A stretch of DNA of 47,331 nucleotides from Planctomycetota bacterium (GTDB lineage: Bacteria; Planctomycetota; UBA1135; UBA2386). Shown in pieces: positions 10,254-28,103 of the stretch. The translations under genes were made by a program, and so were the position numbers. The notes under the pieces are model-generated. The model ran no database searches and had not been told where the DNA came from. It saw only the letters and a program-made list of their open reading frames with translations. The stretch spans positions 1 to 47,331 of the forward strand of contig JAEUHS010000027.1 in assembly GCA_016794035.1 (NCBI GenBank), given 5' to 3'. Each line of letters opens with the position of its first letter. Positions within the stretch are counted from its first letter, which is position 1.

Positions 10254-10313
10254 CCGGAAGTCGGCGCCGGCCGACTGCGACGAAGAGCCGCTTCCCGCAG
10301 CCGGTGCAACGGC

Positions 10314-10319
10314 TACCCT
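10314..10319 (+). promoter_or_regulatory. -10-like TACCCT before ppx
   Basis: TACCCT ends 8 nt before ATG 10328 and there is no Shine-Dalgarno sequence. Together with the element at 10248-10253 it forms a compact divergent promoter pair. Confidence 0.5.
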
Positions 10320-10327
10320 GCCTGCAC

Positions 10328-11872: not shown

Positions 11873-11898
11873 CGGCCACGGGACCGCTGCACCCCGCC

Positions 11899-13467: not shown

Positions 13468-13474
13468 CGCCAAA
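13455..13474. repeat. Inverted repeat TTTGGC-N8-GCCAAA over a stop codon
   Basis: A perfect 6-bp inverted repeat flanks the TAG stop of the CYTH-CHAD gene. It could be a weak 3' hairpin or an operator for the downstream heat-shock gene. There is no T-tract. Confidence 0.35.
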
Positions 13475-13569
13475 ATGGCGTTCCAGCGCCGACTCGGCTG
13501 TCGAGCGAGACACACGTAACATAAGTCTGGAGCGATGCTTCTGGTTCTGGCGCCACATTGGCACCAATC

Positions 13570-13583
13570 GGCACACCGCTTGC
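13570..13583 (+). promoter_or_regulatory. Candidate sigma-54 (-24/-12) promoter of hsp20
   Basis: GGCAC-ACCGC-TTGC matches the RpoN consensus TGGCAC-N5-TTGCW with the invariant GG and GC at the correct spacing. Its -12 element lies 32 nt before the hsp20 ATG, so the leader would be about 20 nt and would contain the AGGAG site. Just upstream is a perfect ATTGG-CA-CCAAT palindrome at 13557-13568. A TAACAT hexamer at 13517-13522 is an alternative sigma-70-like -10. No CIRCE element is present. Confidence 0.45.
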
Positions 13584-13615
13584 CTCGTGGCGACTCCCCA
13601 ACCAGGAGATCCCAC

Positions 13616-14065
13616 ATGCAAAAGACCCAGTCGAATGTCCCGTCGCGCTCGCCGTCGCTGCGCGACCCGTTGCAGAGCCTGTTCGGCCGCCTGTTCGGCG
13701 ACACGCTGCAGGAGTTCTACGGCACCCCGGAGGCCAACGCGGCGCCGCGCACCAACATCGCCGAGAACGACCGCGCCTACGAGCTGTCGTTCGAGTTGCC
13801 CGGCCTCGACGAGAAGGACATCCAGGTGCACGTGCAGGACCACGTGCTGACCGTGGCCGGCGAGCGCAAGGACGACCGCGAGACCCAGGGCAAGCGCTGG
13901 CACCGCGTCGAACACCGCTACGGCCAGTTCTCGCGCATGATCTCGTTGCCGCAGGACGCGTCGACCGAGGGGGTCGAAGCCGTCTACAAGAGCGGCGTGC
14001 TCACGGTCACCGTGCCGAAGCAGCCCGAGTCGCGGCCGACCAAGGTGCAGATCAAGACGAACTGA
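13616..14065 (+). CDS. Small heat shock protein, Hsp20/alpha-crystallin family
   Basis: A 149-residue ATP-independent holdase chaperone. The N-terminal arm (RDPLQSLFGRLFGDTL) is followed by the alpha-crystallin domain from about residue 42: NIAENDRAYELSFELPG, then VQDHVLTVAGERKDD, then FSRMISLPQDASTEGVEA, and the hallmark GVLTVTVPK. The C-terminal VQI is a short version of the IxI/V oligomerisation motif. AGGAG at 13604-13608, 7 nt before ATG 13616, decides the start among several upstream in-frame options. The sigma-54-like site upstream suggests regulation separate from the polyphosphate genes before it. Confidence 0.95.
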   Translation: MQKTQSNVPSRSPSLRDPLQSLFGRLFGDTLQEFYGTPEANAAPRTNIAENDRAYELSFELPGLDEKDIQVHVQDHVLTVAGERKDDRETQGKRWHRVEHRYGQFSRMISLPQDASTEGVEAVYKSGVLTVTVPKQPESRPTKVQIKTN

Positions 14066-14093
14066 GTCCGTGCCGCCGCCCACCCGGCTCGCG

Positions 14094-14099
14094 TAGGCT
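14094..14099 (+). promoter_or_regulatory. -10-like TAGGCT before dtd
   Basis: TAGGCT ends 6 nt before the GTG start of dtd and no Shine-Dalgarno sequence is present. It is consistent with a leaderless transcript. Confidence 0.5.
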
Positions 14100-14105
14100 G
14101 CCACC

Positions 14106-14588
14106 GTGATCACGGTCGTGCAGCGAGTCGGTTGGGCGCGCGTCTCGGTCGACGGCGATTGCATCGGTGCGATCGAACGCGGCCTGCTGCTGTTCGTCGG
14201 CGTCGAGCACGGTGACACGGACGCCTCGGCCGACGCCACCGCGAAGAAGGTCGCCGCGCTGCGCGTGTTTCCCGACCGCACGCCGATGGACCTGTCGGTG
14301 GCGCAGATCGGCGGCGGCTGCCTGGTCGTCAGCCAGTTCACGCTGGCCGCCGAGCTGCGGCACGGCAACCGCCCCGACTTCGGTGCCGCGGCAGCCCCCA
14401 CGATCGCCGAGCCGCTCTACCTGCGCGTCGCCGAGCAGCTGAGCACCGCCGGCCTGCGCGTCGCCACCGGGCGGTTCGGCGCCTCGATGCAGGTCGAGTC
14501 CTGCAACGACGGGCCGGTGACGGTCGTACTGACCGTGCGCGACGGCCGGGTCGTCGGGCGGCCGGCCCCGGCCAGGCCTACGAACTAA
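14106..14588 (+). CDS. dtd: D-aminoacyl-tRNA deacylase
   Basis: It hydrolyses D-amino acids (and glycine) mischarged on tRNA, acting as a cytoplasmic proofreader. The 160 residues show the start MITVVQRVGWARVSVDG, the catalytic-side motif SQFTLAAELRHGNRPDF, and a C-terminal GASMQVESCNDGPVTVVL. This corresponds to the family's GxxM...NxGPVT cross-subunit Gly-cisPro element; here it reads NDGPVT. The GTG start is supported by homologous N-termini and the TAGGCT hexamer. Length is slightly above the usual 145-150 because of a short C-terminal extension. The stop lies 47 bp before the next gene on the same strand. Confidence 0.93.
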   Translation: MITVVQRVGWARVSVDGDCIGAIERGLLLFVGVEHGDTDASADATAKKVAALRVFPDRTPMDLSVAQIGGGCLVVSQFTLAAELRHGNRPDFGAAAAPTIAEPLYLRVAEQLSTAGLRVATGRFGASMQVESCNDGPVTVVLTVRDGRVVGRPAPARPTN

Positions 14589-14635
14589 GCCCACCGGGCC
14601 CGACACACCTCGGACTTGGTGACAGCCTCGCTTGC

Positions 14636-15871
14636 GTGCATGATCGACGCGCCGTGCACGTGCTCTTCCTGGCCCCGGACACTCATGTCTACAACCACGG
14701 CTTCGTCGGGGCCCTGAAGGACCTCGGCGCGAAGGTCTCGGCGATCGGGATGACGGGTCGCGGCCAGCTGAGCGCGACTGCGGCGCGACTGCTCGACGGC
14801 TACCGCCACTGCGACCGCATGATGGAACCGGACGCGGTGCTGCGCGCGGCGCGTGAGCTCGCCGCGCCGGCCTTCGATCGCATCGAGACCATCGACGAAC
14901 CGTTGGTCGACGTCGCCGCGACGCTGCGCGGCACGCTCGGTGTGCCAGGGCCCTCGCTCGAGACCGCGCGGCTGTGCCGCGACAAGGTCGCGATGAAGGA
15001 GTTCCTGCGCCGGCACGAGATCCCGTGCGCGCAGTCCGGCGCCGTCGCCGCGGCCGCCGACGCGCATGCGTTCGCCGAGCGCTGGGGTTACCCGGTGATC
15101 CTGAAGCCGCTGGCCGGTTTCGGCTCGTTGCGCACGTTCCGCTGCGGCACGGCCGGCGAACTGGACGATGCGCTGCGACAGCTGAAGCCGTCGGCAGGCA
15201 AGCCGGTCGCGATCGAGGAGTTCATCGAGGGCCACGAAGGCTTCTTCGATTCGATGTGCGACAGCGACGGCGTGCGTCACGAGTTCGCCGCGCACTACTA
15301 CCCCGGCTGCCTCGAGGCGACACAGCAGCGCTGGATCTCGCCGCAGATCGCGGTCACCAATCGCATCGGCGAGCGCGGCTACGACGAGCTGCGCGCGATG
15401 AACGCGCGCGTGATCGCCGCGCTCGGGATCCGGAACGCGGCCACGCACATGGAGTGGTTCTTCGGGCCGAAGGGGCTGAAGTTCAGCGAGATCGGCGCCC
15501 GGCCGGCCGGCGAGAAGATCTGGGACATGTACCGCGTCGCCAACGAGTTCGACGTCTACCGCGAGTGGGCGCTGGCGATCCTCGGTCGGCCCGGCGAACA
15601 GCAGCCCAGTCGGCGCTACGCCGCCGGCTCGATCCAGATCCGGCCCGATCGCGACGGCAGGATCGTCGGCCACCGCGGTCTCGAAGCGGCGCTGCAGCGC
15701 TGCGGCGAGTTCATCTACGAGCAGTCGGTGCCGGCGCCCGGCACGCCGACCAAGGCACTCGACAAGGGCTGGCTGGTCAACACCTGGTTCCGGCTGCGCC
15801 ACCCCGACTACGACACGCTGCGCGAGCTGATGACGTTCCTCGGCGAGACCGTCAAGGTCGAAGCGCGCTGA
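14636..15871 (+). CDS. ATP-grasp domain enzyme (substrate unknown)
   Basis: A 411-residue ATP-grasp protein of the carboxylate-amine/thiol ligase superfamily. The N-terminal pre-ATP fold HVLFLAPDTHVYNHGFVGALKDLG is followed by PSLETARLCRDKVAMKEFLRRHEIPCA. The phosphate-binding loop is PVILKPLAGFGSLRTFRC, the adenine-contact strand is VAIEEFIEGHEGFFDS, and the metal-binding stretch is HMEWFFGPKGLKFSEIGARPAG (E and N/R of the EINxR class, here EIGAR). This order is the same as in carbamoyl-phosphate-synthase-like and BacD/RizA-like peptide ligases. The start is GTG 14636; GTG 14654 is an alternative. No non-ribosomal peptide or amino-acid cluster is nearby, so the acceptor is unknown. Confidence 0.8.
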   Translation: MHDRRAVHVLFLAPDTHVYNHGFVGALKDLGAKVSAIGMTGRGQLSATAARLLDGYRHCDRMMEPDAVLRAARELAAPAFDRIETIDEPLVDVAATLRGTLGVPGPSLETARLCRDKVAMKEFLRRHEIPCAQSGAVAAAADAHAFAERWGYPVILKPLAGFGSLRTFRCGTAGELDDALRQLKPSAGKPVAIEEFIEGHEGFFDSMCDSDGVRHEFAAHYYPGCLEATQQRWISPQIAVTNRIGERGYDELRAMNARVIAALGIRNAATHMEWFFGPKGLKFSEIGARPAGEKIWDMYRVANEFDVYREWALAILGRPGEQQPSRRYAAGSIQIRPDRDGRIVGHRGLEAALQRCGEFIYEQSVPAPGTPTKALDKGWLVNTWFRLRHPDYDTLRELMTFLGETVKVEAR

Positions 15872-15895
15872 CGCTGCTGGCCGCGTCGACCTCGC

Positions 15896-16753
<858 letters not shown>

Positions 16754-16760
16754 GCCGGCG

Positions 16761-16766
16761 AGACTA
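16761..16766 (-). promoter_or_regulatory. -10-like TAGTCT before the TPR-zincin gene
   Basis: TAGTCT on the minus strand ends 7 nt before the ATG. A TAGGC-N6-GCCTA inverted repeat at 16781-16796 lies just upstream in the space shared with the divergent usp gene and may be an operator. Confidence 0.45.
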
Positions 16767-16877
16767 GCTGCTCGCGGCGGTAGGCCGAAGAGCCTACTTG
16801 CGGAGCCAGCCACGAACGGATCCGCTACCGATCGTCGGGAGGCACACCGCACCCCATCGCCCGCGCGTCGAGAAGCC

Positions 16878-17318
16878 ATGATCCAGATCCGCCGCATCGT
16901 CTGTCCGACCGACTTCTCCCCCACCGCCGCCCGGGCCGTCGCCTACGCCGCCGAGATGGCGCGCACGTTCGGCGCCGAGCTGACCCTGTTGCACGTCGTG
17001 CCGGAGATGAACTACCCGCTGCGCAGCTTCGGCATGGCCTCGGCGTTCCCGCACCTGCGTGAAGAACTCCACCTGCGGGCCGACGAGGAACTGCAGAAGG
17101 CGAAGGCGGCGATCAAGGACGCCAAGGTCAACACCCTGCTGCAGGACGGCGAAGCACACGTGCAGGTGTTGGAATGCGCGAAGGCGACCGGCGCCGACCT
17201 GATCGTCATCGGCACCCACGGCCACACCGGTCTCAAGCACGCGTTCCTGGGCAGCACCGCGGAGAAGGTCGTACGCCTGTCGGACTGCCCGGTGCTCACC
17301 GTTCGCACCAAGGACTGA
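16878..17318 (+). CDS. Universal stress protein, UspA family (ATP-binding type)
   Basis: A 146-residue single Usp domain: IRRIVCPTDFSPTAARAVAYAAEMA at the N-terminus, LTLLHVVPEM for strand 2, and GADLIVIGTHGHTG followed by FLGSTAEKVVRLSDCPVLTV. The G-2x-G-9x-G(S/T) nucleotide motif is intact (GTHG, nine residues, GST), so ATP binding is expected. ATG 16878 starts directly before the first strand. It is divergent from the TPR-zincin gene and followed by a tandem repeat. Usp proteins commonly answer to starvation or low oxygen, which fits the oxygen-sensing genes beyond the repeat, but co-regulation is inference. Confidence 0.93.
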   Translation: MIQIRRIVCPTDFSPTAARAVAYAAEMARTFGAELTLLHVVPEMNYPLRSFGMASAFPHLREELHLRADEELQKAKAAIKDAKVNTLLQDGEAHVQVLECAKATGADLIVIGTHGHTGLKHAFLGSTAEKVVRLSDCPVLTVRTKD

Positions 17319-17328
17319 GGCCCTACAG

Positions 17329-17637
17329 GTGGGATCGATCGCCCGGGGAGCGGTCGCACCGCCCGCTCCCCGCGGTGGCGCCAGCCAGGTCCCCGACCGC
17401 CGCAGCGGCGCTGGAGGCGCTGCTCGCCAGCGCATCGTCGCCGCGTTGCGGCGGTCCCCGGGATCACGTGGGATCGTTCGCCCGGTGGGCGAACGCACCG
17501 CCGTTCCCCGCGGTGGCGCCAGCCAGGTCCGCGACCGACGCAGCGGCGCTGGATGCTCTATTCGCTGGCGTACGGTCGCCGCGTTGCGGCGGTCCCCGGG
17601 ATCACGTGGGATCGTTCGCCCGGTGGGCGAACGATCA
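17329..17637. repeat. Tandem ~139-bp non-coding repeat, 2.2 copies
   Basis: Copy 1 (17329-17467, 139 bp), copy 2 (17468-17605, 138 bp) and a 32-bp start of copy 3 follow one another. Each begins GTGGGATCG and ends CGGTCCCCGGGATCAC. Shared blocks include CCCCGCGGTGGCGCCAGCCA, GCAGCGGCGCTGGA and CGTCGCCGCGTTGCGGCGGT; the segments between have diverged. Each copy opens with an inverted repeat: perfect in copies 2 and 3 (TTCGCCC-GGT-GGGCGAA core), altered in copy 1. It fills the whole space between usp and the convergent response-regulator gene, and the last copy supplies that gene's TGA. No credible reading frame crosses it. It looks like a dispersed palindromic intergenic element. Confidence 0.85.
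17610..17636. terminator. Perfect 12-bp hairpin at the repeat edge
   Basis: GATCGTTCGCCC, loop GGT, then GGGCGAACGATC. It overlaps the stop of the response-regulator gene and lies downstream of usp, so it could end transcription from both sides. There is no T-tract. Confidence 0.5.
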
Positions 17638-18300
17638 CACGTTCAGCAGGCCCTCGCGGATCGCGAGACGCGCCAGTTCGGCCGCGCTGTGGCAGTCGAG
17701 CTTGCGCTGCAGGTTCTCGCGGTGCTTCTTCACCGTGCCGAGCGACAGGCCGAGCATCGCGGCGACCTCCTTGTTGGCCTTGCCGAGCGCCAGCAGCTGG
17801 AACACCTCGCGCTCGCGCGGCGTCAGCACGCCGAGCGTCGTCGAGTCGCCGACCGCCGGCGCTTCGCCGCGCACCGCGCGCGCCATGATGCCGCTCGCCA
17901 CCTTCGGCGACAGGTAGGAGTCGCCGCGCCGCACCGACTCGATCGCCAGCGCCAGCTCCTCGGGCTCGCTGTCCTTCGACAGGTAGCCGTCGGCGCCGGC
18001 CTGCAGCGCCTGCTGCACGAACTTGGTGCCCTCGTGCTGCGATGCCATCAGCACGCGCGTGTGCGGCGAGACCTTCTTCAACGGTCCGACGGAGTCGATG
18101 CCCGACAGGCCCGGCATCGTGATGTCGAGCACGACGACGTCCGGCTTCAGCTGCTGTACGAGTTCGATGCCGGCGCGCGCATCGCCGGCATCGCCGACGA
18201 CGCGGAAGTGCGTGTTGCGCTCGAGCAGCGACTTGAACGCGGCCCGCACGATCGCCTGATCGTCGATCAACACGATGCTGATGGTCTGCTTGTCGGTCAT
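17635..18300 (-). CDS. NarL/FixJ-type response regulator (REC-LuxR)
   Basis: A 221-residue two-domain regulator. The receiver domain (1-125) has ISIVLIDDQ acidic pair, phospho-acceptor D59 in VVVLDITMPG, the switch residues in VLMASQH, and the conserved Lys in GYLSKDSE. The DNA-binding LuxR/GerE helix-turn-helix is at about 155-215: LTPREREVFQLLALGKANKEVAAMLGLSLGTVKKHRENL. ATG 18300 with a GAGAG purine stretch upstream is preferred over a TTG 15 bp earlier. It is 26 bp downstream of the receiver-kinase gene on the same strand, so the two are one operon. With a FixL-like kinase next to it, it is the best candidate for a FixJ-like output regulator. Confidence 0.93.
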   Translation of the reverse strand: MTDKQTISIVLIDDQAIVRAAFKSLLERNTHFRVVGDAGDARAGIELVQQLKPDVVVLDITMPGLSGIDSVGPLKKVSPHTRVLMASQHEGTKFVQQALQAGADGYLSKDSEPEELALAIESVRRGDSYLSPKVASGIMARAVRGEAPAVGDSTTLGVLTPREREVFQLLALGKANKEVAAMLGLSLGTVKKHRENLQRKLDCHSAAELARLAIREGLLNV

Positions 18301-18326
18301 GGTCGGCTCTCGCAACGGGGTTTTGG

Positions 18327-19397
18327 TCAGGCAGGCACGAGGGCCGGCACTGTGACCCGGAAACAGGCACCGGCGCCGGGCTTCTCCGCCAGCGAGATCG
18401 TACCACCGTGGGTCTCGATCACCTTGCGGCAGAACGCGAGCCCGATGCCCGTCCCGTACTCCTTGGAACTGTGGAACGGTCGGAAGATTTCGTCGCGTTT
18501 GTTCGCGGGCACGCCGGGCCCGTCGTCCTCGACCTCGACGATGGCGTGCTCGCCGTCGCGGCGGCAGCGCACGACCACGTGGCCCTTGCCCTCGCAGGCT
18601 TCGACGGCGTTGCGCACCAGATTCGACACGACCTCTGCGAACAACTGCGGGTCGACCTCCGCCATCGTTCCCGGCTCGCTGCGAACTTCGATCTCCGCGC
18701 CGACGGCGACCGGCAACTGCGCGACCTCGCGCACGGCATCCTGCGCCAGGTGGCCAAGGTCGGTCGACTGGCGCTGCAGGTGCAGCGGTTTGGCGAACGA
18801 CAGTGTCTGGCCGAGCATGCGTTCGATGCGGTTCAGGTTGCCGATGAACTCCTCGACCAGCACGCGGTCCTCGACGCCGAGCTTCTCGCCGACCGCGCGC
18901 AAGGCATGGCGCAGGCTGGTGATCGGCGTGCGGATCTCGTGGCTCAGCACCGACGCGGACTCACCGAGGCTGGCCAGGTTCTTCAGGATCTGCATCTCGG
19001 CGTGGCGCGCCTGGTCGCGTTCCCGCAGCAGGTGCACGTGGCGCAGGCCACGGGAAACGGCCTCCAGCAGCTTGTCCTTCGTCACCGGCTTGCTGATGTA
19101 GTCGAACGCGCCGCGCCGCACGGCTTCGGACGCGGTCTCGAGGTTCGGCTCACCGGTGATCAGCACGACCGGTTCCTGGCACTGGCGCGCCTCGACGACC
19201 TCGCGCAGGACCTTCATGCCGTCGAAGTCCGGCATCACGATGTCGGTGACCAGCATCTCGAACCGGCCGGGCCACAGGTGCTGCTCCACCTCGCGGAAGG
19301 AGCCGCCGCGCACGACGTGGTGCCCCTGTTGTTCGAGGAACCGGGTCAGTGTCTGCAGCAGCCGCGCTTCGTCGTCGATCAGTACGATGCGGGCCAT
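18327..19397 (-). CDS. Receiver-histidine kinase (REC-HisKA-HATPase)
   Basis: A soluble 356-residue signal protein. The N-terminal receiver has LIDDE and acceptor D52 in VTDIVMPDFDG, with the Lys in YISKPV. The HisKA phospho-histidine is H153 in LSHEIRTPITSLRHAL. The ATPase domain carries the N-box LVRNAVEACEG, G1 VEDDGPGVP, the F-box-like FRPFHSSKEYGTGIGLAF (G2) and the final GACFRVTVP. No membrane segment or DNA-binding domain is present. This receiver-first layout suits an intermediate: a kinase phosphorylates D52, which tunes the kinase part that feeds the adjacent LuxR regulator. It is divergent from the FixL-like gene with a 140-bp shared region. Confidence 0.93.
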   Translation of the reverse strand: MARIVLIDDEARLLQTLTRFLEQQGHHVVRGGSFREVEQHLWPGRFEMLVTDIVMPDFDGMKVLREVVEARQCQEPVVLITGEPNLETASEAVRRGAFDYISKPVTKDKLLEAVSRGLRHVHLLRERDQARHAEMQILKNLASLGESASVLSHEIRTPITSLRHALRAVGEKLGVEDRVLVEEFIGNLNRIERMLGQTLSFAKPLHLQRQSTDLGHLAQDAVREVAQLPVAVGAEIEVRSEPGTMAEVDPQLFAEVVSNLVRNAVEACEGKGHVVVRCRRDGEHAIVEVEDDGPGVPANKRDEIFRPFHSSKEYGTGIGLAFCRKVIETHGGTISLAEKPGAGACFRVTVPALVPA

Positions 19398-19481
19398 TCG
19401 TTCGGGGAGCGGTCGTTGCCTGGATGCACCGAGCTCATTCTGACCCCGTCGAACAGCCCACCCGGGGGGCCACAGTTCGTA

Positions 19482-19512
19482 CCTCGCCGACGCCTTTGGC
19501 GTAGCGGCGAGG
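19482..19512. promoter_or_regulatory. Strong inverted repeat in the divergent kinase promoter region
   Basis: CCTCGCCG-ACGCC, loop TTT, GGCGT-AG-CGGCGAGG gives 13 paired bases with a 2-nt bulge. It is 25 bp before the FixL-like start codon, in the space between the two divergent kinase genes. It could be an operator for both promoters or an RNA hairpin in the fixL-like leader. Confidence 0.45.
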
Positions 19513-19537: not shown

Positions 19538-20872
19538 ATGTCGACCACGGAGCCTACCGCCGGCCCCCACGCGCCGCGACACGGACCCAGCTGGCCCGAG
19601 TTCGCGCTGCCGGCCGCCGCCGTGCTGTCCTGGGTGCTCGCCGTCGGCAGCAGCGGCACCCTGGCCGCCATCGCCTGGGTCGCCGCGGGAGCGACGACGG
19701 CGCTCGGCTGCCTGTACCCCTGGTGCCGACGACGCACCTGGCACACGGTCGAGGCCGCGACCTGGTCGGCGCAGCGCGAACGCAGCGCGGCGGTGGCGGC
19801 GGGCGCGCAGCACGCGGCCAGGTGGCAGGCGATCGTCGACACCGCGACCGAGGGCATCCTGACGATCGACGCCGTCGGCACCATCGAGACCGTGAACGGC
19901 GCCGTCGAGCGCCTGTTCGGCTGGCCTGCCGACGAACTGATCGGCAAGAACGTGAGGGTGCTGATGCCACCGCCGTACTGCGACGAACACGACGGCTACC
20001 TGCAGCGCTACCTGACGACCGGCGAGCGCCGCATCATCGGCATCGGCCGCGAGGTCATGGGCCGGCGCCGCGACGGGACCGAGTTTCCGATCGACCTGTC
20101 GGTCGGCGAGGGCCAGATCGGCGGTCGACGGTTCTTCACCGGGGTGATCCGCGACATCAGCGACCGCAAGCAGATGCAGACCAAGCTGGCGCAGGCCGAA
20201 CGCCTGGCGGCGGTCGGCGAACTCGCCGCCGGCGTCGCGCACGAGGTCAACAACCCGATCAACACGATCATCAACTGCGCACAGCTGATCGAGGACGGTG
20301 ACGACGCCGAGGCGAACTGCCGCATCATCACCGAGGAAGGCCAGCGGGTCGCCGAGATCGTGCGCGACCTGTTGCAGTTCGCGCGCGACGACCGGGCCGA
20401 GCCGCAGCCGACGTCCCTGGCGGACGTCGTCGAGCGCACGCGACGGCTCGTCGGCGAGAACTGGAAACGACACGGCATCCGGCTGCTGGTGACGCTGCCC
20501 GACGATCTGCCGCCGGTGCTGGCCCGCCCGCAGCAGCTGCAGCAGGTGCTGCTCAACCTGATGATCAACGCCAAGGACGCGCTGATGCAGGAGCCGCGCG
20601 ACGACCGGCAGGTCGAACTGTCGTTCCAGGCCGTCGACGGCGCCGTGCAGTTCACCGTGCGGGACAACGGCCCCGGCCTCGCTGCCGGGCTCGGCGACCG
20701 CGTCTTCGAACCGTTCGTCACCACCAAGCGGGCTCGCGGCGGCACCGGCCTCGGGCTGTCGATCAGCAAGAGCCTGGTCGAGAGCTACGGCGGCACCATC
20801 CGCGCGGAGAGCGAGCCAGGCCGCGGGGCCGCGTTCATCGTCCAGCTGCCGCGAGCCGCGAACGGCGAGTGA
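19538..20872 (+). CDS. FixL-like haem-PAS oxygen-sensor histidine kinase
   Basis: A 444-residue membrane-anchored kinase. Two hydrophobic segments (about 22-38 and 41-60) are followed by a PAS domain (about 95-210) and a HisKA/HATPase core with H235 in GVAHEVNNP, G1 VRDNGPGL and G2 TGLGLSI. The PAS stretch HDGYLQRY...RIIGIGR aligns without gaps to rhizobial FixL. H151 falls on the proximal haem histidine (His200 of B. japonicum FixL), R157 on Arg206, I166/I169 on Ile215/Ile218 and R171 on Arg220. RRFFTGVIRDISDR matches the end of the FixL PAS. So haem and O2 binding are likely. It is convergent with the cbb3 operon and divergent from the receiver-kinase gene. A non-haem PAS is less likely given these residues. 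Confidence 0.88.
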   Translation: MSTTEPTAGPHAPRHGPSWPEFALPAAAVLSWVLAVGSSGTLAAIAWVAAGATTALGCLYPWCRRRTWHTVEAATWSAQRERSAAVAAGAQHAARWQAIVDTATEGILTIDAVGTIETVNGAVERLFGWPADELIGKNVRVLMPPPYCDEHDGYLQRYLTTGERRIIGIGREVMGRRRDGTEFPIDLSVGEGQIGGRRFFTGVIRDISDRKQMQTKLAQAERLAAVGELAAGVAHEVNNPINTIINCAQLIEDGDDAEANCRIITEEGQRVAEIVRDLLQFARDDRAEPQPTSLADVVERTRRLVGENWKRHGIRLLVTLPDDLPPVLARPQQLQQVLLNLMINAKDALMQEPRDDRQVELSFQAVDGAVQFTVRDNGPGLAAGLGDRVFEPFVTTKRARGGTGLGLSISKSLVESYGGTIRAESEPGRGAAFIVQLPRAANGE

Positions 20873-20879
20873 GCGACGG

Positions 20880-22346
20880 TCAGCGCCGGTGTCGCGGACT
20901 CGGCCCGAGCAGCGGCGCCGTGGCCAGGCGCGTCAGTTCGCCGTCCGGCTCCTGGCAGCGTACCAGCAGCTCCGCCTTGAGGCCGGCCTGGAACGCATCG
21001 CGCGGCACGAACACGTGCACCGGGATGCGCAGCGACTCGAGCGACGCGAGCGTCACCTCGACCGTCGACACGATCGTCTCGGCGTCCGCGGGCCCCTGCA
21101 CCGTCACGGTGAACGTGCGCGGACCGGACCGCTTGTTGATCAGCTGCAGATCGAACACGTTGTGCACCCGCTCGCCGCCGCCTTCGAGCGAGTAGGCACG
21201 CCCCGGCGCGCGGATCAGACTGGCCTCGAACGGTCGGCGCGCCGTCAGCGCCAGGGTCAGCATCGACAGGCCGAGCAGCAGCAGGAACCCGTAGAGGAAC
21301 ACCCGGCCGCGCAGGAACCGGCGCTTGCCGGTCTCGAAGCCGCGCTGGCTGTCGTAGCGCACCAGCCCCTTGGGCCGGCCGATCTTCTGCATCACCTCGT
21401 CGCACGCGTCGATGCAGTTGGCGCAACCGACGCACTCGAGCTGGGTGCCGTTGCGGATGTCGATGCCGGTCGGGCAGACCGCGACGCAGCGGTAACAGTC
21501 GACGCAGTCGCCGGCGCCCTGCTGGTGCGCCGGGCCGCGCGGCTCGCCGCGCTTGCCGTCGTAGCCGACCAGCACGGTGTCGGGGTCGTAGAGCGCGGCC
21601 TGCAGTCGCCCGTACGGACAGATCACGATGCACAGCTGTTCGCGGAACCAGGTGAAGTTGACGAACAGGATCAGCGTGGTGACGACGACGAACACGAACG
21701 CCGTCAGGTGCCGCGTCGGCGACGACGTCACGGCCTCGACCAGCACCTCGGTGGGCAGGAAGTAGCCGAGGAAGCTGTGCGTGATCAGCGCGGCGATCAG
21801 GAAGAACACGACCATCTTGATGCCGCGCCGCACGAACTTGCCGGCGCTCATCTTCGCCTTGTCCAGCCTCGCGCGCGCGGCGGCAGGTCCCTCGATCAGC
21901 CGCTCGATGCGCCGGAACACGCCCTCGAGAAACACCGTGTGCGGGCACGCGTAGCCGCACCACATGCGGCCCCACAGCGCGGCGACGACGAACAGCGTGA
22001 AGCCGACGCCGCTGATCAGGAAGAACGCGTACCAGAAGTCCTGCGCGTTGAACGTCTGGCCGAGCAGATAGAAGTGGCGCGCCGGCAGATCGATCAGGAA
22101 CGCCGGGTGGCCGTTGATGCGGATCCACGGCACCACCAGGTAGACGCCGATCAGCAGGTACCAGAGGCCGTGCTTCCAGCGCTGGAAGCGCCCGTGCACG
22201 TCGGCCGGGTGGATCGCGTTGCGCGACCCGTCCGGGTTGATGCTGAACAGCGTGTCGACGTCGGGACGCCGTACGACCGGGCGCCCCTTGTGCACGACCG
22301 GCCGCGCGACCTCGGCGCCCTTGCGCGCTTCGGGCTGCTCGTTCAT
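20880..22346 (-). CDS. ccoG: cbb3 oxidase accessory ferredoxin-like protein CcoG
   Basis: A membrane iron-sulfur protein of 488 residues needed for cbb3 maturation, with a proposed role in Cu(II) reduction. The N-terminal half has membrane segments (GLWYLLIGVYLVVPWIRI, FFLISGVGFTLFVVAALW) and the motif GRMWCGYACPHTVFLEG. Two 4Fe-4S clusters follow near 275-325: CVDCYRCVAVCPTGIDI and CVGCANCIDACDEVM. Another membrane helix (FLYGFLLLLGLSMLTLAL) leads to the Ig-like FixG C-terminal domain (INKRSGPRTFTVTVQG). It is the last gene of the cco operon, 27 bp after ccoP, and its stop is 7 bp from the convergent FixL-like stop. Confidence 0.95.
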   Translation of the reverse strand: MNEQPEARKGAEVARPVVHKGRPVVRRPDVDTLFSINPDGSRNAIHPADVHGRFQRWKHGLWYLLIGVYLVVPWIRINGHPAFLIDLPARHFYLLGQTFNAQDFWYAFFLISGVGFTLFVVAALWGRMWCGYACPHTVFLEGVFRRIERLIEGPAAARARLDKAKMSAGKFVRRGIKMVVFFLIAALITHSFLGYFLPTEVLVEAVTSSPTRHLTAFVFVVVTTLILFVNFTWFREQLCIVICPYGRLQAALYDPDTVLVGYDGKRGEPRGPAHQQGAGDCVDCYRCVAVCPTGIDIRNGTQLECVGCANCIDACDEVMQKIGRPKGLVRYDSQRGFETGKRRFLRGRVFLYGFLLLLGLSMLTLALTARRPFEASLIRAPGRAYSLEGGGERVHNVFDLQLINKRSGPRTFTVTVQGPADAETIVSTVEVTLASLESLRIPVHVFVPRDAFQAGLKAELLVRCQEPDGELTRLATAPLLGPSPRHRR

Positions 22347-22373
22347 GGACAGGCAACGACGCCGGCGACGGCG

Positions 22374-22955
22374 TTATTGCTCCTTCTTGGCGTTCGGCTC
22401 CGGCGCCTTGCCGGGCACGTTCGTGTTCTTGATCGACAGCACGTACGCCGTCGTCTGCAGCACGAACTGCAGCCCCTCGTGCTCCCACGACTGCATGCCG
22501 CCCATGTAGCCGTTGGCAGGATCCGCCGCACGGCCCTTCGCGATCGTCGTGTAGATGTCCATCGGCTTGCCGCCGTAGATCCACATGTCGTCGGTGAGGT
22601 TCGGGCCGATGTTGCCGCTCGCGTCCGGCTTGTGGCACAGCGCGCACTTCGCCGGGTTCTTGAAGATCCTCTCGCCGGCGGCGACGAACGCCGGCTCCTT
22701 GCTCAGCTTCAGCAGCGCGGCGTCGTCGATCGGGTTCTCGGCCAGCTGCTTCGCGAGCCTGGCGGCCGCCGCCTCCTGCTCGATCGCGTAGGCCTCGCTC
22801 GGCAGCTCGCCGACGCCGATCGTGTGGTAGAAGACCCAATAGCCGATCGAGAACAGGCAGGCGCCGTAGAAGGTCCAGAGCCACCAGTTCGGCAGCCGGT
22901 TGTCGAACTCCTGGATGCCGTCGAAGGTGTGCCCGCGAGTTGCTTCGGTGGTCAT
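22374..22955 (-). CDS. ccoP: cbb3 cytochrome c oxidase subunit III, single-haem CcoP
   Basis: A membrane-anchored c-type cytochrome of 193 residues. The FixP N-terminal anchor is clear: FDGIQEFDNRLPNWWLWTFY followed by GACLFSIGYWVFYH. One cytochrome c domain has CALCH at 104-108 and a likely Met ligand in GYMGGMQSWE near 150. Typical proteobacterial CcoP is about 300 residues with two CxxCH sites; only one is present here and no second site is found in the remaining sequence, so this is a one-haem form. Its ATG overlaps the ccoQ stop by 4 bp. Confidence 0.92.
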   Translation of the reverse strand: MTTEATRGHTFDGIQEFDNRLPNWWLWTFYGACLFSIGYWVFYHTIGVGELPSEAYAIEQEAAAARLAKQLAENPIDDAALLKLSKEPAFVAAGERIFKNPAKCALCHKPDASGNIGPNLTDDMWIYGGKPMDIYTTIAKGRAADPANGYMGGMQSWEHEGLQFVLQTTAYVLSIKNTNVPGKAPEPNAKKEQ

Positions 22956-23134
22956 TGCTTGGCTCCGGTGGTGGTGTCGTCGTCGAGCGGCAGCGAGGCC
23001 ATGCGACGGTACTCCGGCGCGCGGGACCGCTGGCAGACGCGGATCAGGACGGTGGCGAAGATCGCCACGAAGATGCCGAGCGCGATCAACGGCAGGTGCA
23101 GCGCGGCGATGTCGGCCAGGAATTGACGCAGCAT
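22952..23134 (-). CDS. ccoQ: cbb3 oxidase small subunit CcoQ
   Basis: A 60-residue protein with one transmembrane helix (LPLIALGIFVAIFATVLIRV) and a short polar C-terminus with EYRRMASLPLDDD. Size, topology and position between ccoNO and ccoP fit CcoQ/FixQ, which stabilises the complex. It starts 1 bp after the ccoNO stop and overlaps ccoP by 4 bp. Sequence conservation of CcoQ is low, so the call depends mainly on context. Confidence 0.82.
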   Translation of the reverse strand: MLRQFLADIAALHLPLIALGIFVAIFATVLIRVCQRSRAPEYRRMASLPLDDDTTTGAKQ

Positions 23135-23135
23135 G

Positions 23136-25484
23136 TCACTTGCCTCCTGCGGTCGAGGCCGCCTGGTTGGTCGCGGGTTCGAGGTTGCGGCCGAGTCGCA
23201 TCAGGTAGGCGACCATCGCGACGATCTCGGTCTTCGGATCCGCGTCGGTCTTGCCCTGCGTCGCGAGGTTGGCGACCACGGTCGCCGCCTGCGCCTCGTA
23301 GTCGGCGACCGCGTTGACGATCTGCTCGTCGGTGTAGGGGGTGCCGAGCTTCTTCAGCACGCGCATCTTGTCGGCAGCGATGCCCGGTTCGACCTCGGCG
23401 GTGAAGAGCCACGGGAACCCCGGCATGATCGACAACGGCACGACGTTGCGCGGATTCTCCATGTGGTCCCAGTGCCAGGACTCGTTGTACTTCGATCCGA
23501 TGCGCGCCAGATCGGGTCCGGTGCGCTTGCTGCCCCACTGGAACGGGTGGTCCCACATCGACTCCTCGATGCGGCTCGGCGCGCCGTAGCGCAGCTGTTC
23601 GTCGCGGAACGGCCGGATCATCTGCGAGTGGCAGACATAGCAGCCCTCGCGCACGTAGAGGTCGCGGCCGGTCAGCTCGAGCGCGGTGTACGGCTTCACG
23701 CACATCTCCCCGTTCGCCGCCAGCGGCACCTGCTTGTCGGTGATCAGCCCGGGCAGCAGCTCGAACACGCCGCCGACGACGACCGCGATCAGCGTCAGGA
23801 TCGAGAACGCCAACGGCCGTGACTCGATCACCTCGTGCCAGGTGTGGCGCCCCTGGTGCGTCGAGCGGAACAGCATGCCCGCCGCGAACATGACGATCGC
23901 CGCGAGCAGCACGAACCCGAGCACCGCGAGGCCGATGCTAGGCATCGCGAACATCGTCGCCGCGCCCATGCCGAGGAAGCTCAGGATCACCGGCGCGCTG
24001 AACACCAGCCGCGCCGTGCTCGGCTCGCCGGGCAGCGGCATCGTGCGCGTGACGGTCACCTCGGTCTCGATCGTCGTCGCGCGGCCGGACATCGCCGTCG
24101 CGACCAGGTTCCAGACCATCAGCAGCCAGCCGATCAGGAAGAAGCCGCCGCCGATGCTGCGGGCCATGTAGAGCCACTGTTTGTCCTCGAGGATCTGGCT
24201 CCAGTCGGTGTACTGCAGGCCGCCGTCGGGCGTCTGCGCGCGCCACATCAGACCCTGGCTGATGCCGGACACCCACATCGACGCGACGTAGAGCAGGATG
24301 CCGAAGATGCCGATCCAGAAGTGCAGGTCGGCCATCTTCTGGCTGTGCAGCCTGGTGCCGAACAGCCGTGGCACGAGCCAGTAGAACATGCCCGCGGCCA
24401 TGAAGCCGTTCCAGCCGAGCGCGCCGCTGTGCACGTGGCCGATGATCCAGTCGGTGTAGTGGCCGAGCGCGCTGACCGACTTGATCGACAGCAGCGGCCC
24501 CTCGAAGGTCGCCATGCCGTAGAAGGTCACGCCGGCGACGAAGAACTTCAGCACCGGATCGGTGCGCACCTTGTGCCACGCGCCGCGCAGCGTCAGCAGG
24601 CCGTTCAGCATGCCGCCCCACGACGGCGCCCACAGCATCAGGCTGAACAGCATGCCGACCGACTGCGCCCAGTCGGGCAGCGCGGTGTTCAGCAGGTGGT
24701 GCGGCCCGGCCCAGATGTAGATGAACACCAGCGCCCAGAAGTGCACGATCGACAGCCGGTAGCTGAACACCGGCCGGTCCGCCGCCTTCGGCAGGAAGTA
24801 GTACATGATCCCGAGGATCGGCGTCGTCAGGAAGAACGCGACCGCGTTGTGGCCGTACCACCACTGCGTCAGCGCGTCCTGCGCGCCCGAGAACACGCCG
24901 TAGCTCTTCGTGCCCGTCACCGGCAGCGACAGGTTGTTGACGATGTAGAGCACCGCGATGGTCAGGATCGTCGAGATGTAGAACCAGATCGAGACGTAGA
25001 GGCTCTTCTCGTTGCGGATCGCCAGCGTCCAGAAGAAGTTGACCGCGAAGGCGACCCAGACCAGCACGACGGCGATGTCGAGGAACCACTCGAGCTCGGC
25101 GTATTCCTTGCTCTGCGTGATGCCGAACGGCAGCGTCAGCGCCGCCCCGAGGATGATCAGCTGCCAGCCCCACAGGTGGACCTTGCTGAGCAGGTCCGAC
25201 GCCATGCGCGTCTTCAGCAGCCGCTGCGAGCTGTAGTAGATGCCGGCGAACATCATGTTGCCGACCAGCGCGAAGATCACCGCGTTGGTGTGCAGCGGCC
25301 GCAGCCGGCTGAAGGTCAGGAACGAGGTGTCGAAGTTCAGGACCGGGAAGCTCAGCTGCAGCGCGATCAGGAGCCCGACGAGCAGCCCGATCAGGCCCCA
25401 GCCGACGCTGGCCCAGACGAAGCCGCGCACGACGGCGTCGTCGTAGGTCACACGACGGGTCTCGGTGACGGTGGCAGTTTGCAT
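23136..25484 (-). CDS. ccoNO: Fused cbb3 oxidase subunits I and II (CcoN-CcoO)
   Basis: This 782-residue protein reduces O2 to water with high affinity and pumps protons at the inner membrane. The CcoN part (about 1-480) has about twelve helices with haem and CuB ligands: H65 in RPLHTNAV, H212 in WWYGHNAVAFF, H262/H263 in AGPHHLLNT and H350/H352 in IGHVHSGALGWNG. The CcoO part (about 520-782) has one anchor helix, then GRDLYVREGCYVCHSQMIRP with haem c site C615-x-x-C618-H619, and IMPGFPWLF containing a likely Met ligand. N and O are separate genes in proteobacteria; here one uninterrupted frame joins them. It is 10 bp after ccoS. Confidence 0.97.
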   Translation of the reverse strand: MQTATVTETRRVTYDDAVVRGFVWASVGWGLIGLLVGLLIALQLSFPVLNFDTSFLTFSRLRPLHTNAVIFALVGNMMFAGIYYSSQRLLKTRMASDLLSKVHLWGWQLIILGAALTLPFGITQSKEYAELEWFLDIAVVLVWVAFAVNFFWTLAIRNEKSLYVSIWFYISTILTIAVLYIVNNLSLPVTGTKSYGVFSGAQDALTQWWYGHNAVAFFLTTPILGIMYYFLPKAADRPVFSYRLSIVHFWALVFIYIWAGPHHLLNTALPDWAQSVGMLFSLMLWAPSWGGMLNGLLTLRGAWHKVRTDPVLKFFVAGVTFYGMATFEGPLLSIKSVSALGHYTDWIIGHVHSGALGWNGFMAAGMFYWLVPRLFGTRLHSQKMADLHFWIGIFGILLYVASMWVSGISQGLMWRAQTPDGGLQYTDWSQILEDKQWLYMARSIGGGFFLIGWLLMVWNLVATAMSGRATTIETEVTVTRTMPLPGEPSTARLVFSAPVILSFLGMGAATMFAMPSIGLAVLGFVLLAAIVMFAAGMLFRSTHQGRHTWHEVIESRPLAFSILTLIAVVVGGVFELLPGLITDKQVPLAANGEMCVKPYTALELTGRDLYVREGCYVCHSQMIRPFRDEQLRYGAPSRIEESMWDHPFQWGSKRTGPDLARIGSKYNESWHWDHMENPRNVVPLSIMPGFPWLFTAEVEPGIAADKMRVLKKLGTPYTDEQIVNAVADYEAQAATVVANLATQGKTDADPKTEIVAMVAYLMRLGRNLEPATNQAASTAGGK

Positions 25485-25494
25485 GACGTCTTAC

Positions 25495-25680
25495 CTAGGG
25501 TTCAGGAGAGGAAGGTGGTGGTTCGCCCGCGACACGCTCCTCGGCGTCGTCCTCGAGCGGCATCAGACAGAGGCGTTCGGCGTCGCTGCAGTCGCCCTGC
25601 TTCGCGGCGAACACGAACAACACGATCGAGCCGACGACCAGCGCGAGGCTGCAGAACAGCAGCAGCGGCACGATGCTCAT
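25495..25680 (-). CDS. ccoS: cbb3 oxidase assembly protein CcoS
   Basis: A 61-residue protein with one helix (SIVPLLLFCSLALVVGSIVLFVFAAK) followed by the CcoS-like tail QGDCSDAERLCLMPLEDD. CcoS is needed for cofactor insertion into cbb3 oxidase. ATG 25680 overlaps the ccoI stop as ATGA, which settles the start. The gene is too short to stand out except by this context. Confidence 0.88.
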   Translation of the reverse strand: MSIVPLLLFCSLALVVGSIVLFVFAAKQGDCSDAERLCLMPLEDDAEERVAGEPPPSSPEP

Positions 25681-28103
25681 GCGGCCCTCCGGCGCCGGAA
25701 GCGGGTCGCGGTGTGCAGCACCAGCGCGGCCGAACTGATCGGCATCAGCACCGCGCACAGCACCGGCGTCATCGCCGCGGCGAAGCACGCGACCAGCGTC
25801 GAGCTGTTGTAGATCAGCGCCATCGTCAGGTTCGTGCGCACGACGCGCGCGTGCAGGTCGGCGACCTCGAACACGGCGCGCACGGCGCCCGCCTCGGCGC
25901 TGCGGAAGCAGAAGTCGGCGCGGGCCGGCAGCACCGGCCGGTCCATCGCCGGCGTGCCGGCGCAGAACGCGGCCGCGAACGCGGGCGCGTCGTTGAGCCC
26001 GTCGCCGACCATCATCAGGTCGCCGCGATCGAGCGCCTGCACCACGGCCGCCTTGTCGGCCGGCGACATGCCGCCGCGCGCGCGTTCGGCCGCGATGCCG
26101 AGCTGCGCCGCGGCGCGCTGCACGCGGTCGGGCCGGTCGCCGGACAGCAGGTGGATCTCGAGTCCGCGCGCCGTCAGATCCGCGATCTCGTGTGCAGCGC
26201 CGGCGCGGAAGTCCTCCTCGAGCAGGTAGCGGGCCACCAGCTCGCCGTCGCGCGCCAGCACGCATTCGCGGCCGGGCACCGCGGCGGCGGGCACGCCGAC
26301 GAAGGCCCGCCCACCGAGCCGCCATTCGGCGCCGTGCGCGCGGCACACCAGCCCCTGGCCCGCGACCTCGTCGACCTCGACGTCGGCCACGAACGGTGCG
26401 CGGTCGAGGCCCTGCAGGATCGCCTGGCTGACCGGATGGTTGCTGCTCGCCACCATCGTCGCCAGCACCGGCAGCGCCGCGGCCGGCAGTTCGCCGTCGA
26501 CGCGGGCGCGCAGGCCGCCGTGCGTGACGGTGCCGGTCTTGTCGAACACGACCTTGCGCACGCAGCGCGCCTTGTCGAGCAGGCTCCTGCTGCGCACGAA
26601 TACGCCGCGCCGCCGCAGCTGCGCCAGCGACAGGTGGAACGCCAGCGGGGTCGCGATGCCCATCGCGCAGGGGCAGGTGATCACCAGCACCGAGATCGCC
26701 ACCGGCAGCGCGCGGTCCGGATCGATCAGCGACCAGACCCCGGCGCCGAGCGCCGCCGCGACCAGCACGCCGAGCGCGTACGAGCGGTTCAGCCGCTGCC
26801 AGAAGCGCACCCGGCCGCGCGTGTCCTCGCGATCGATCGGCACCTGACCCAGCAGTTCGCCGAGGCCCGAGGTCACGAAGTCCGCGCTCGCCGTGGCGCG
26901 CACGGCGCCGCGCCCGCAGTGGAACGCACCGGCCGGCACCTCGCTGCCGGCCGCGAACGCGCGCGGCTCGCTCTCGCCGTCGATCCAGTCGAGCGAGAAC
27001 CGGCTCGCGGTCGCGACGCGCACGCGCACCGGCACCAGGTCGCCCGGTGCGAGCAGCAGTTCGTCGCCGGGGCGCAGCGTGGCCACCGGCGTCAGCGCGA
27101 CCACGCCGTGCTCGAGCCGGCGCGCACGCATGTGTTCGGCGCCGTCGTCGGCCAGCACCTGATCGCGGCTCTTCGCCAGCGTGCGCTGCTGCAGGAACCG
27201 ACCGCCGAGCATGAAGGCGACGAAGATCGACACCGTGTCGAAGTACACGGCGCCGCCGGTCAGCTGCCCGTAGACCGAGCCGCCGAAGGCCAGCAGCAGC
27301 CCCAGCGAGATCGGCAGGTCCATGTGCACGACGCCGGCGCGCATGCCGGCCAGCGCGGTGCGGAAGAACACCGGCCCGCCGACGACGACGCTCAGCGTGC
27401 CGAGCACCAGCAGCACCTGGCCGAACAGCGTGCGCAGTCCGCCGTCGCCGGCGGCGCTGCCGGCGACCACCCGGTCGAGACCGAAGTAGAGGCTGACGGC
27501 GAGGATCATCGCGTTCATCGCGATCGCCGCGCAGATGCCGAAGCGCAGCAGCAGCCCGGTGTCGCGCACGATCCGGCGGCTCGCCGGCGCCATCTGGTAG
27601 CCGAAGCGCGCGGCGGCGGCGAGGAACGTGGCCGCCGCCCGGCTGCCGCGGTCGTAGATCAGCGTCGCGCGGCCGAGCGACGGATCGAGCCGCAGGTCGC
27701 GCGCGCCCGGCTGGCGCTTCCACACCGTCTGCAGCAGCCAGACGCAGGCGGCGCAGCGGATGCCCTGCACGTCGAGCACCAGCCGCACCGTCGCGCCATC
27801 GCCGGCGGCCAGACGTTCGAGGTCGGGCAGCCAGTCGAACGACGGCAGCCGCGGCACGCTGCCGACCGCCCCGCTGTCGCGGCCGCCGAGATCGTAGAAG
27901 CGCAGCAGCCCCTCGCGGCGCAGCAGCTCGTGCACGACCTCGCAGCCCGCACAGCAGAACGCCGAGCTACGCCGTTCGCCCGGCACCGGTAGGCCACAGT
28001 GCGTACAGCTCGCCCGTCCCCCGGCGACCTCCGTCCTCGCATCCGGAGAATTCCAGGTGCGCGACGACCGTTCGGTCGCAGAGACTTGCGGTCGCAGCCT
28101 CAC
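25677..28103 (-). CDS. ccoI: Copper-translocating P1B-type ATPase for cbb3 assembly (CcoI/FixI)
   Basis: It exports or delivers copper for CuB insertion. Counting from the chosen start, the N-terminus has a metal ribbon C33-T-H-C36...C50-C-A-G-C54, then an HMA domain with C117-A-A-C120. Membrane helices, the CPC metal site (477-479), the phosphorylated D521 in DKTGTVTHGG and the hinge GDGLND near 700 follow. The 808-residue length fits CcoI. The start is uncertain: GTG 28103 is the only in-frame start before the conserved ribbon, has no ribosome site, and lies 10 bp from the divergent TauE-like start. The first 30 residues are not family-like. It heads the cco operon and overlaps ccoS by 4 bp. 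Confidence 0.92.
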   Translation of the reverse strand: MRLRPQVSATERSSRTWNSPDARTEVAGGRASCTHCGLPVPGERRSSAFCCAGCEVVHELLRREGLLRFYDLGGRDSGAVGSVPRLPSFDWLPDLERLAAGDGATVRLVLDVQGIRCAACVWLLQTVWKRQPGARDLRLDPSLGRATLIYDRGSRAAATFLAAAARFGYQMAPASRRIVRDTGLLLRFGICAAIAMNAMILAVSLYFGLDRVVAGSAAGDGGLRTLFGQVLLVLGTLSVVVGGPVFFRTALAGMRAGVVHMDLPISLGLLLAFGGSVYGQLTGGAVYFDTVSIFVAFMLGGRFLQQRTLAKSRDQVLADDGAEHMRARRLEHGVVALTPVATLRPGDELLLAPGDLVPVRVRVATASRFSLDWIDGESEPRAFAAGSEVPAGAFHCGRGAVRATASADFVTSGLGELLGQVPIDREDTRGRVRFWQRLNRSYALGVLVAAALGAGVWSLIDPDRALPVAISVLVITCPCAMGIATPLAFHLSLAQLRRRGVFVRSRSLLDKARCVRKVVFDKTGTVTHGGLRARVDGELPAAALPVLATMVASSNHPVSQAILQGLDRAPFVADVEVDEVAGQGLVCRAHGAEWRLGGRAFVGVPAAAVPGRECVLARDGELVARYLLEEDFRAGAAHEIADLTARGLEIHLLSGDRPDRVQRAAAQLGIAAERARGGMSPADKAAVVQALDRGDLMMVGDGLNDAPAFAAAFCAGTPAMDRPVLPARADFCFRSAEAGAVRAVFEVADLHARVVRTNLTMALIYNSSTLVACFAAAMTPVLCAVLMPISSAALVLHTATRFRRRRAA
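28065..28078. promoter_or_regulatory. Inverted repeat CGACCG-TT-CGGTCG near the cco promoter region
   Basis: A perfect 6-bp inverted repeat lies between the conserved part of ccoI and the divergent TauE-like gene, where promoters for both should be. It is a candidate regulator-binding site. No FNR/FixK-type TTGAT-N4-ATCAA site is present here. Confidence 0.35.

Follow-up and report, generated by a model that had tools for sequence, protein, structure and literature searches.

A FixL-type haem-PAS sensor kinase beside planctomycete cbb3 oxidase genes, with a predicted receiver-kinase relay behind it

FixL is the classic example of a haem-based oxygen sensor. The experiment-backed FixL circuits that we found in open-access PMC are proteobacterial. 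FixL-FixJ is named in Proteobacteria in the accessible part of PMC10876117, and the accessible part of PMC12325837 carries FixL only as a gene name in a list. In the hFixL-FxkR system of Rhizobium leguminosarum, as described in the available sections of PMC7888657, FixL-type sensing is combined with a non-FixJ partner upstream of the cbb3 genes fixNOQP, much as is proposed for the locus described here; FxkR acts via FixK, whereas our locus has a receiver on a separate second kinase and a predicted LuxR-type output. A haem-PAS protein has also been characterised outside the Proteobacteria, namely FG214 of Fimbriimonas ginsengisoli, but the text available from PMC13060918 presents it as a one-component HTH-PAS DNA-binding protein with two ferric-state His ligands, and not as a kinase relay. 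A relay from an upstream kinase through a Rec-controlled kinase to a further receiver, of the kind considered below, is represented by LvrA-LvrB-LvrC of Leptospira, where LvrB, the prototype Rec-HK, is switched on when LvrA phosphorylates its Rec. The signal and output are different there, and the accessible portion of PMC13269768 makes no link to oxygen or haem.

FixL-type genes have been reported from planctomycetes in partially available sources: a Phycisphaerae MAG annotated with 'fixL' and a cbb3 oxidase was read as having microoxic capacity (PMC9083452), and a complete KEGG FixL-FixJ module was assigned to Phycisphaerae and Planctomycetes MAGs (PMC9868349). These reports resemble our case in their FixL-type annotation, once with a cbb3 oxidase, but the parts available stay at annotation level, and haem residues, transmitter lineage, receiver-kinase and gene order are absent from them. 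The FixL/DosP cluster of a PAS survey contains over 9,700 sequences that have the invariant His (PMC10468136, available in part). In our homologue search 3,643 of 7,999 scored candidates reached E 1e-40, and among the matches listed, at least 120, 'sensor kinase FixL' is the name that JGI gives to many, planctomycete homologues among them, and NCBI to one. Given these database names and the MAG-paper annotations, the presence of FixL-type proteins beyond the Proteobacteria was already on record. Neither an experiment on a planctomycete FixL nor a FixL/Rec-HK relay was found in open-access PMC.

The window, the whole stretch of 47,331 nucleotides analysed here, belongs to a 4.83-Mb MAG that is 94% complete and holds one kinase matching over its full length. 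An earlier note on this DNA had placed a FixL-type sensor in a host outside the Proteobacteria, and the nearest named homologues, which are planctomycete MAGs, agree with that placement. The locus contains the following features:

16869..17318, forward strand: Usp-family gene (PF00582), of a kind that often adjoins the regulator pair
17635..18315, reverse strand: NarL-type LuxR response regulator with a receiver (D64) and a GerE HTH
18327..19397, reverse strand: REC-HK, with an N-terminal receiver (D8, D9, D52, K103) and complete HisKA (H153) and HATPase domains
19475..19504, forward strand: conserved direct repeat GTnCGTA-N14-TTnnCGTA(G) before the FixL gene, a candidate regulator site
19538..20872, forward strand: FixL-type haem-PAS sensor histidine kinase, 444 aa, PAS-HisKA-HATPase
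20880..22346, reverse strand: ccoG (TIGR02745 over cut-off)
22374..22955, reverse strand: short ccoP, 193 aa with one CxxCH (FixP_N over cut-off; TIGR00782 108.9 against 180 bits)
23136..25484, reverse strand: fused ccoN-ccoO of the cbb3 oxidase (TIGR00780, TIGR00781 and NF011053 over cut-off)
between ccoI/fixI and ccoNO: ccoS-like ORF, identified by eye
25677..28031, reverse strand: ccoI/fixI-type P-ATPase, 5' end approximate (E1-E2_ATPase, Hydrolase, ATPase-cat_bd)

The sensor kinase consists of a PAS domain (residues 95-207), HisKA (226-285) and HATPase (331-440), with its H-box (H235), N-box and G-boxes all intact. Its N-terminus is hydrophobic, with 19-residue Kyte-Doolittle windows of at least 1.6 beginning at residues 27-42, and the structural model predicts helices at 19-37 and 41-102. 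The PAS segment aligns with rhizobial FixL without gaps, pairing H151 with FixL H200, R157 with R206, I166 with I215, R171 with R220, L187 with L236 and V189 with position 238. The predicted PAS fold superposes on haem-domain structures of Bradyrhizobium FixL at 1.3-1.8 Å with the pocket in the same register, so that the modelled H151 lies on H200, a proximal His on helix F, and R171, R157 and I166 stand as the equivalents of distal Arg220, Arg206 and Ile215. A structure search with the whole model returned mostly kinase-domain rows, with PAS-only rows appearing from rank 43 among the best 50. The haem-PAS assignment made in the earlier note is thus borne out by both alignment and predicted structure, and the kinase is predicted to bind haem at H151 and to sense O2.

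It is possible for such a domain to report redox state, CO or NO through its haem, or to have lost haem altogether, in which case the kinase would not be an O2 sensor. Pocket variation among relatives gives this some footing: of 21 aligned rows, 4 carry N or H in place of R157 and 6 carry A or V in place of I166 (L034 and L041 being one genome in each count), and about 40% of FixL-cluster sequences lack the His in the PAS survey, as far as its accessible text goes (PMC10468136). H151 and R171, however, are invariant in 45/45 aligned homologues and in 21/21 rows of a second alignment, and this, together with the modelled fit of the pocket to the Bradyrhizobium structures, makes the alternative improbable.

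The likeness to Sinorhizobium and Bradyrhizobium FixL covers the haem-PAS sequence and predicted fold, the proximal His, the Arg206 and Arg220 equivalents and the cbb3 neighbourhood, but does not extend to the transmitter, which reads HEVNNP at the H-box against HE(L/I)NQP in those proteins and HE(L/I)N(Q/E)P across alphaproteobacterial FixL-type rows. In a 95-row transmitter tree, 22 planctomycete rows with a FixL-type PAS group together (SH-aLRT 97), as do 12 proteobacterial rows in a clade of their own (96); the 12 include two identical rows as well as L048 and L063 (PAS without the His). Neither clade takes in four further rows with a FixL-type PAS: L052, L054, L064 and the planctomycete L145. 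Forcing the 22 and the 12 into a single clade costs 77.8 log units and is rejected (p-AU 0.0035) on a quick tree and a sequence set picked after the first tree; 17 of the 95 rows had been removed, namely rows with long branches or odd composition and the three FixL-type PAS rows L052, L054 and L145, and L064 was retained but assigned to neither group. Kinases with HEVNNPIN are over-sampled around the planctomycete clade because the contig scan patterns included that motif. The best PDB match of the transmitter is ZraS.

The PAS tree gives a different picture. With L048, L063 and L145 removed beforehand, FixL-type PAS domains fall into one 37-row set (97/98) that also takes in two outgroup rows, and the alphaproteobacterial L046, L059 and L062 lie within a planctomycete group (84/94). 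One PAS set and two transmitter clades together point to a shared sensor carried on two transmitter lineages. On the 119 columns of this tree the domain may have passed in either direction, and either swap may have come first.

The window kinase scores 257 bits against an NCBIfam FixL cut-off of 850, for a model that is rhizobial and strict, and with its transmitter in the other clade its identity as FixL over the whole protein is rejected. The adjacent LuxR regulator was considered as FixJ and likewise rejected (81.8 bits against a cut-off of 255); it has the phospho-Asp receiver and GerE HTH of NarL/LuxR-type response regulators and scores higher to MctR (180) and NarL (150), both below their own cut-offs. 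Furthermore, no Crp-type HTH passes the cut-off for PF13545, the family searched, in the 94%-complete genome, where the best match is LexA at 22.1 against 27 bits; the same search gave matches in 14/14 control genomes. A FixK/FNR step like that of the rhizobial cascade is therefore likely to be absent. Because the transmitter clade differs, the regulator is not FixJ and no Crp-type HTH exceeds the cut-off, the FixL label, judged from these comparisons, fits the sensor only.

In place of FixJ, the window has a REC-HK and the NarL-type regulator, 11 bp apart and both divergent from the sensor gene across 140 bp. The REC-HK has the architecture of the LvrB-type Rec-HK, an N-terminal REC followed by complete HisKA and HATPase with conserved Asp and His, and aligns to the solved Rec-HK LvrB from receiver residue 43 through the kinase end (71.8 bits). 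Its D8, D9, D52, K103 and H153 are kept in 17/17 true rows of an alignment that holds two further rows, both NtrC-type proteins, and D64 of the LuxR regulator is kept in 18/18.

We surveyed 154 genomes of the order at E 1e-60, scoring the best 11-13 candidates per genome for each of the kinases. The FixL-type kinase occurs in 33, REC-HK in 26 and both in 23, an association with a Fisher p of 1.4e-16 when shared descent is ignored; 10 of the 33 have the FixL-type kinase without REC-HK, and three genomes have REC-HK without FixL. In 22 of these 23 genomes the two genes are neighbours on a single contig; in the remaining one, G008, each is found at the end of a different contig. In 20 of these 22 the pair is divergent, while in G033 and G122 the genes run on the same strand in the order FixL, REC-HK, LuxR. 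The co-occurrence and the two gene orders speak for the extra receiver-kinase step suggested in the earlier note, and the REC-HK step is well supported as part of a conserved unit. One MAG, G011, carries two FixL/REC-HK/LuxR/cco loci (L022, L036) and is likely to be a binning mixture, since one of the copies is near-identical to G004.

The order of steps within this unit may be read in two ways. REC-HK's receiver scores 67 bits against Bradyrhizobium FixJ and 59-70 against the NtrC-type receivers found beside related FixL kinases, compared with 48 and 31-40 for the receiver of the LuxR regulator. REC-HK is placed directly after FixL because its receiver is nearer to these FixJ and NtrC-type receivers, and we regard it as the predicted target of the FixL-type kinase, with the LuxR regulator as the predicted output. 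LvrB, activated through its own receiver by the kinase ahead of it, offers a structurally solved precedent for such a step (PMC13269768). Alternatively, the system would be branched, the FixL-type kinase phosphorylating the LuxR regulator directly and REC-HK acting as a competing kinase or phosphatase. Such an arrangement would suit a unit whose only DNA-binding protein is the LuxR regulator, and in Bradyrhizobium uaiense (L040) FixL adjoins its LuxR-type partner FixJ. The NarL-like character of the window regulator's receiver, further than that of REC-HK from the FixJ and NtrC-type receivers, argues against it, as does the retention of REC-HK and LuxR together without FixL in G010, G012 and G021, in the manner of a cognate pair. 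We consider the branched scheme unlikely.

Among genomes with a FixL-type kinase, G015, G040 and G119 have a REC-AAA-Fis NtrC-type sigma-54 activator beside or near it. These activators, and the ZraS match of the transmitter, ally the system with ZraS/AtoS/NtrB-type kinases; it differs from them in the FixL-type haem-PAS sensor and, in the clade of the window kinase, in having REC-HK and LuxR in the place of the NtrC-type partner.

The window kinase's stop codon lies 7 bp from that of ccoG on the opposite strand, and a link to cbb3 genes, also put forward in the earlier note, proves to be conserved: cco lies within 8 kb of FixL on the same contig in 16 of the 22 FixL genomes of the family, counting G145, whose contig ends inside ccoNO. 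In G015, one of the 16, and in G040, from another family, the FixL gene is found at the other end of cco, the 5' end. Across the order, FixO is found at E 1e-20 in 27/33 FixL genomes against 67/121 others (p 0.004, shared descent ignored). G010, G012 and G021 (L127, L128 and L129; 95, 95 and 85% complete), which keep REC-HK and LuxR with FixL not found, have FixO in 0/3 at E 1e-20; they show weak matches at E 4e-5 to 7e-4, two of which exceed the Pfam cut-off once adjoining pieces are included. Among REC-HK genomes, FixO is lacking at this threshold in 2/23 with FixL (G008 and the 65%-complete G147) against 3/3 without it, with p 0.004 if G145 is counted as FixO-positive and otherwise 3/23 and p 0.008. 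The visible flanks of G010 and G021 have other genes at the expected place of FixL and cco, and that of G012 stops at a contig edge. As neighbours, FixL and cco could be removed together by one deletion. Control of cbb3 by the unit is what we infer from this neighbourhood and joint loss.

Seven family genomes have cco and neither FixL nor REC-HK at E 1e-60. In two such FixL-less members a hybrid kinase with a receiver heads the cco operon (L137:13000-15404, L140:15092-17272); Pfam gives HAMP-PAS-HisKA-HATPase-REC for the L137 protein, with GAF just under the cut-off. The hybrid kinase may serve this operon as an alternative sensor.

The O2 relay could also be real and the cbb3 operon a bystander by inherited synteny, the true regulon of the relay lying elsewhere, for example in Usp, Hsp20 or general stress genes. 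The genes at 10304-17318 (Ppx/GppA, CYTH-CHAD, Hsp20, D-Tyr-tRNA deacylase, ATP-grasp, TPR-zincin and Usp) largely keep their order beside the unit in family loci that extend that far, and the wide synteny PPX-CHAD-Hsp20-DTD-zincin-Usp-LuxR-REC-HK-FixL-cco recurs in the family, as a bystander would predict. The FixL units of G033 and G122 are not beside cco, the cbb3 genes being on a different contig, and in G008 FixL is retained and the sole FixO match is weak (E 3.8e-8, above Pfam's cut-off). At L029:1-2333 in G008, FixL (residues 46-440 matched) is followed directly by a DsbD_2-type C-terminal remnant and an endonuclease-like gene, and the cco operon is missing between FixL and the remnant, where relatives carry it. 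On the other side, FixL-type kinases occur next to cco in two arrangements and with two kinds of partner, and a strong FixO is missing from the REC-HK genomes that lack FixL. On balance the bystander reading appears somewhat unlikely.

DNA elements bear on the same alternative, which gains from the finding of no shared element at cco. The pattern of the direct repeat upstream of FixL was derived from these same REC-HK/FixL intergenic regions, and 11 of the 14 contain it with no more than 2 mismatches (L022 and L023 being near-identical, and the L030 copy falling outside the interval used). The best matches before REC-HK in two FixL-less genomes and before FixL in G033 and G122 have 3-4 mismatches, and those at cco, Usp and Hsp20 have 4-5. 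Whole-genome scans gave 10 exact matches in 7 of 25 genomes, 3 of them at FixL promoters, against 20 for a reversed control. A CGTA-element regulon is accordingly rejected, and the repeat marks the FixL promoter. It would fit self-regulation of FixL and, as it precedes FixL only, provides no sequence evidence for the regulator at the cco promoter. It has a partial likeness to the FixJ SELEX site GTAMGTAG (PMC4999443, available in part). FNR-box-like matches number 8 in the window against a shuffle mean of 1.7, above all 100 shuffles; five of these, allowing up to 2 mismatches, lie at 22114-25748 within the coding sequence of ccoG, ccoP, ccoNO and fixI. A scan of four sequences with a sigma-54 -24/-12 pattern found a single match, in L035.

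We are thus able to propose a relay that we hold to be probable, in which a FixL-type PAS on a non-FixL transmitter signals through D52 of REC-HK and D64 of the NarL-type regulator to the cbb3 genes. The FixL-type kinase would bind O2 at the haem held by H151, and at low O2 would phosphorylate D52 of the adjacent REC-HK; REC-HK would then phosphorylate D64 of the NarL-type regulator, which would adjust the neighbouring cbb3 oxidase genes. Of the interpretation given in the earlier note, the FixL-type sensor, the conserved link to cbb3 genes and the receiver-kinase step are supported, and the identity of the whole protein as FixL falls away. The front end is predicted to be FixL-like, with a Rec-HK relay behind it. 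The REC-HK and LuxR pair is likely to have a role of its own or another input, as it is kept without FixL, and with the G008 FixL seemingly lacking cbb3 the unit as a whole likely has other targets and inputs.

A broader reading, which we offer tentatively and think doubtful, is that planctomycetes have an O2 relay of their own, in which a haem-PAS on a ZraS/NtrB-like transmitter, with no FixJ, would use an NtrC-type partner in some genomes and a Rec-controlled kinase with a NarL-type regulator in the window lineage, and would control cbb3 without FNR or FixK.

Overall, if the proposed relay is correct, the same sensor domain has been reused with a kinase of another lineage, and its signal runs through a kinase under receiver control. 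A single bacterial order would then offer a natural case of exchanged partners, an NtrC-type regulator in some genomes and REC-HK with a NarL-type regulator in others, and the unit would provide a route for O2 control of high-affinity respiration in a planctomycete with no Crp-type HTH over the cut-off.
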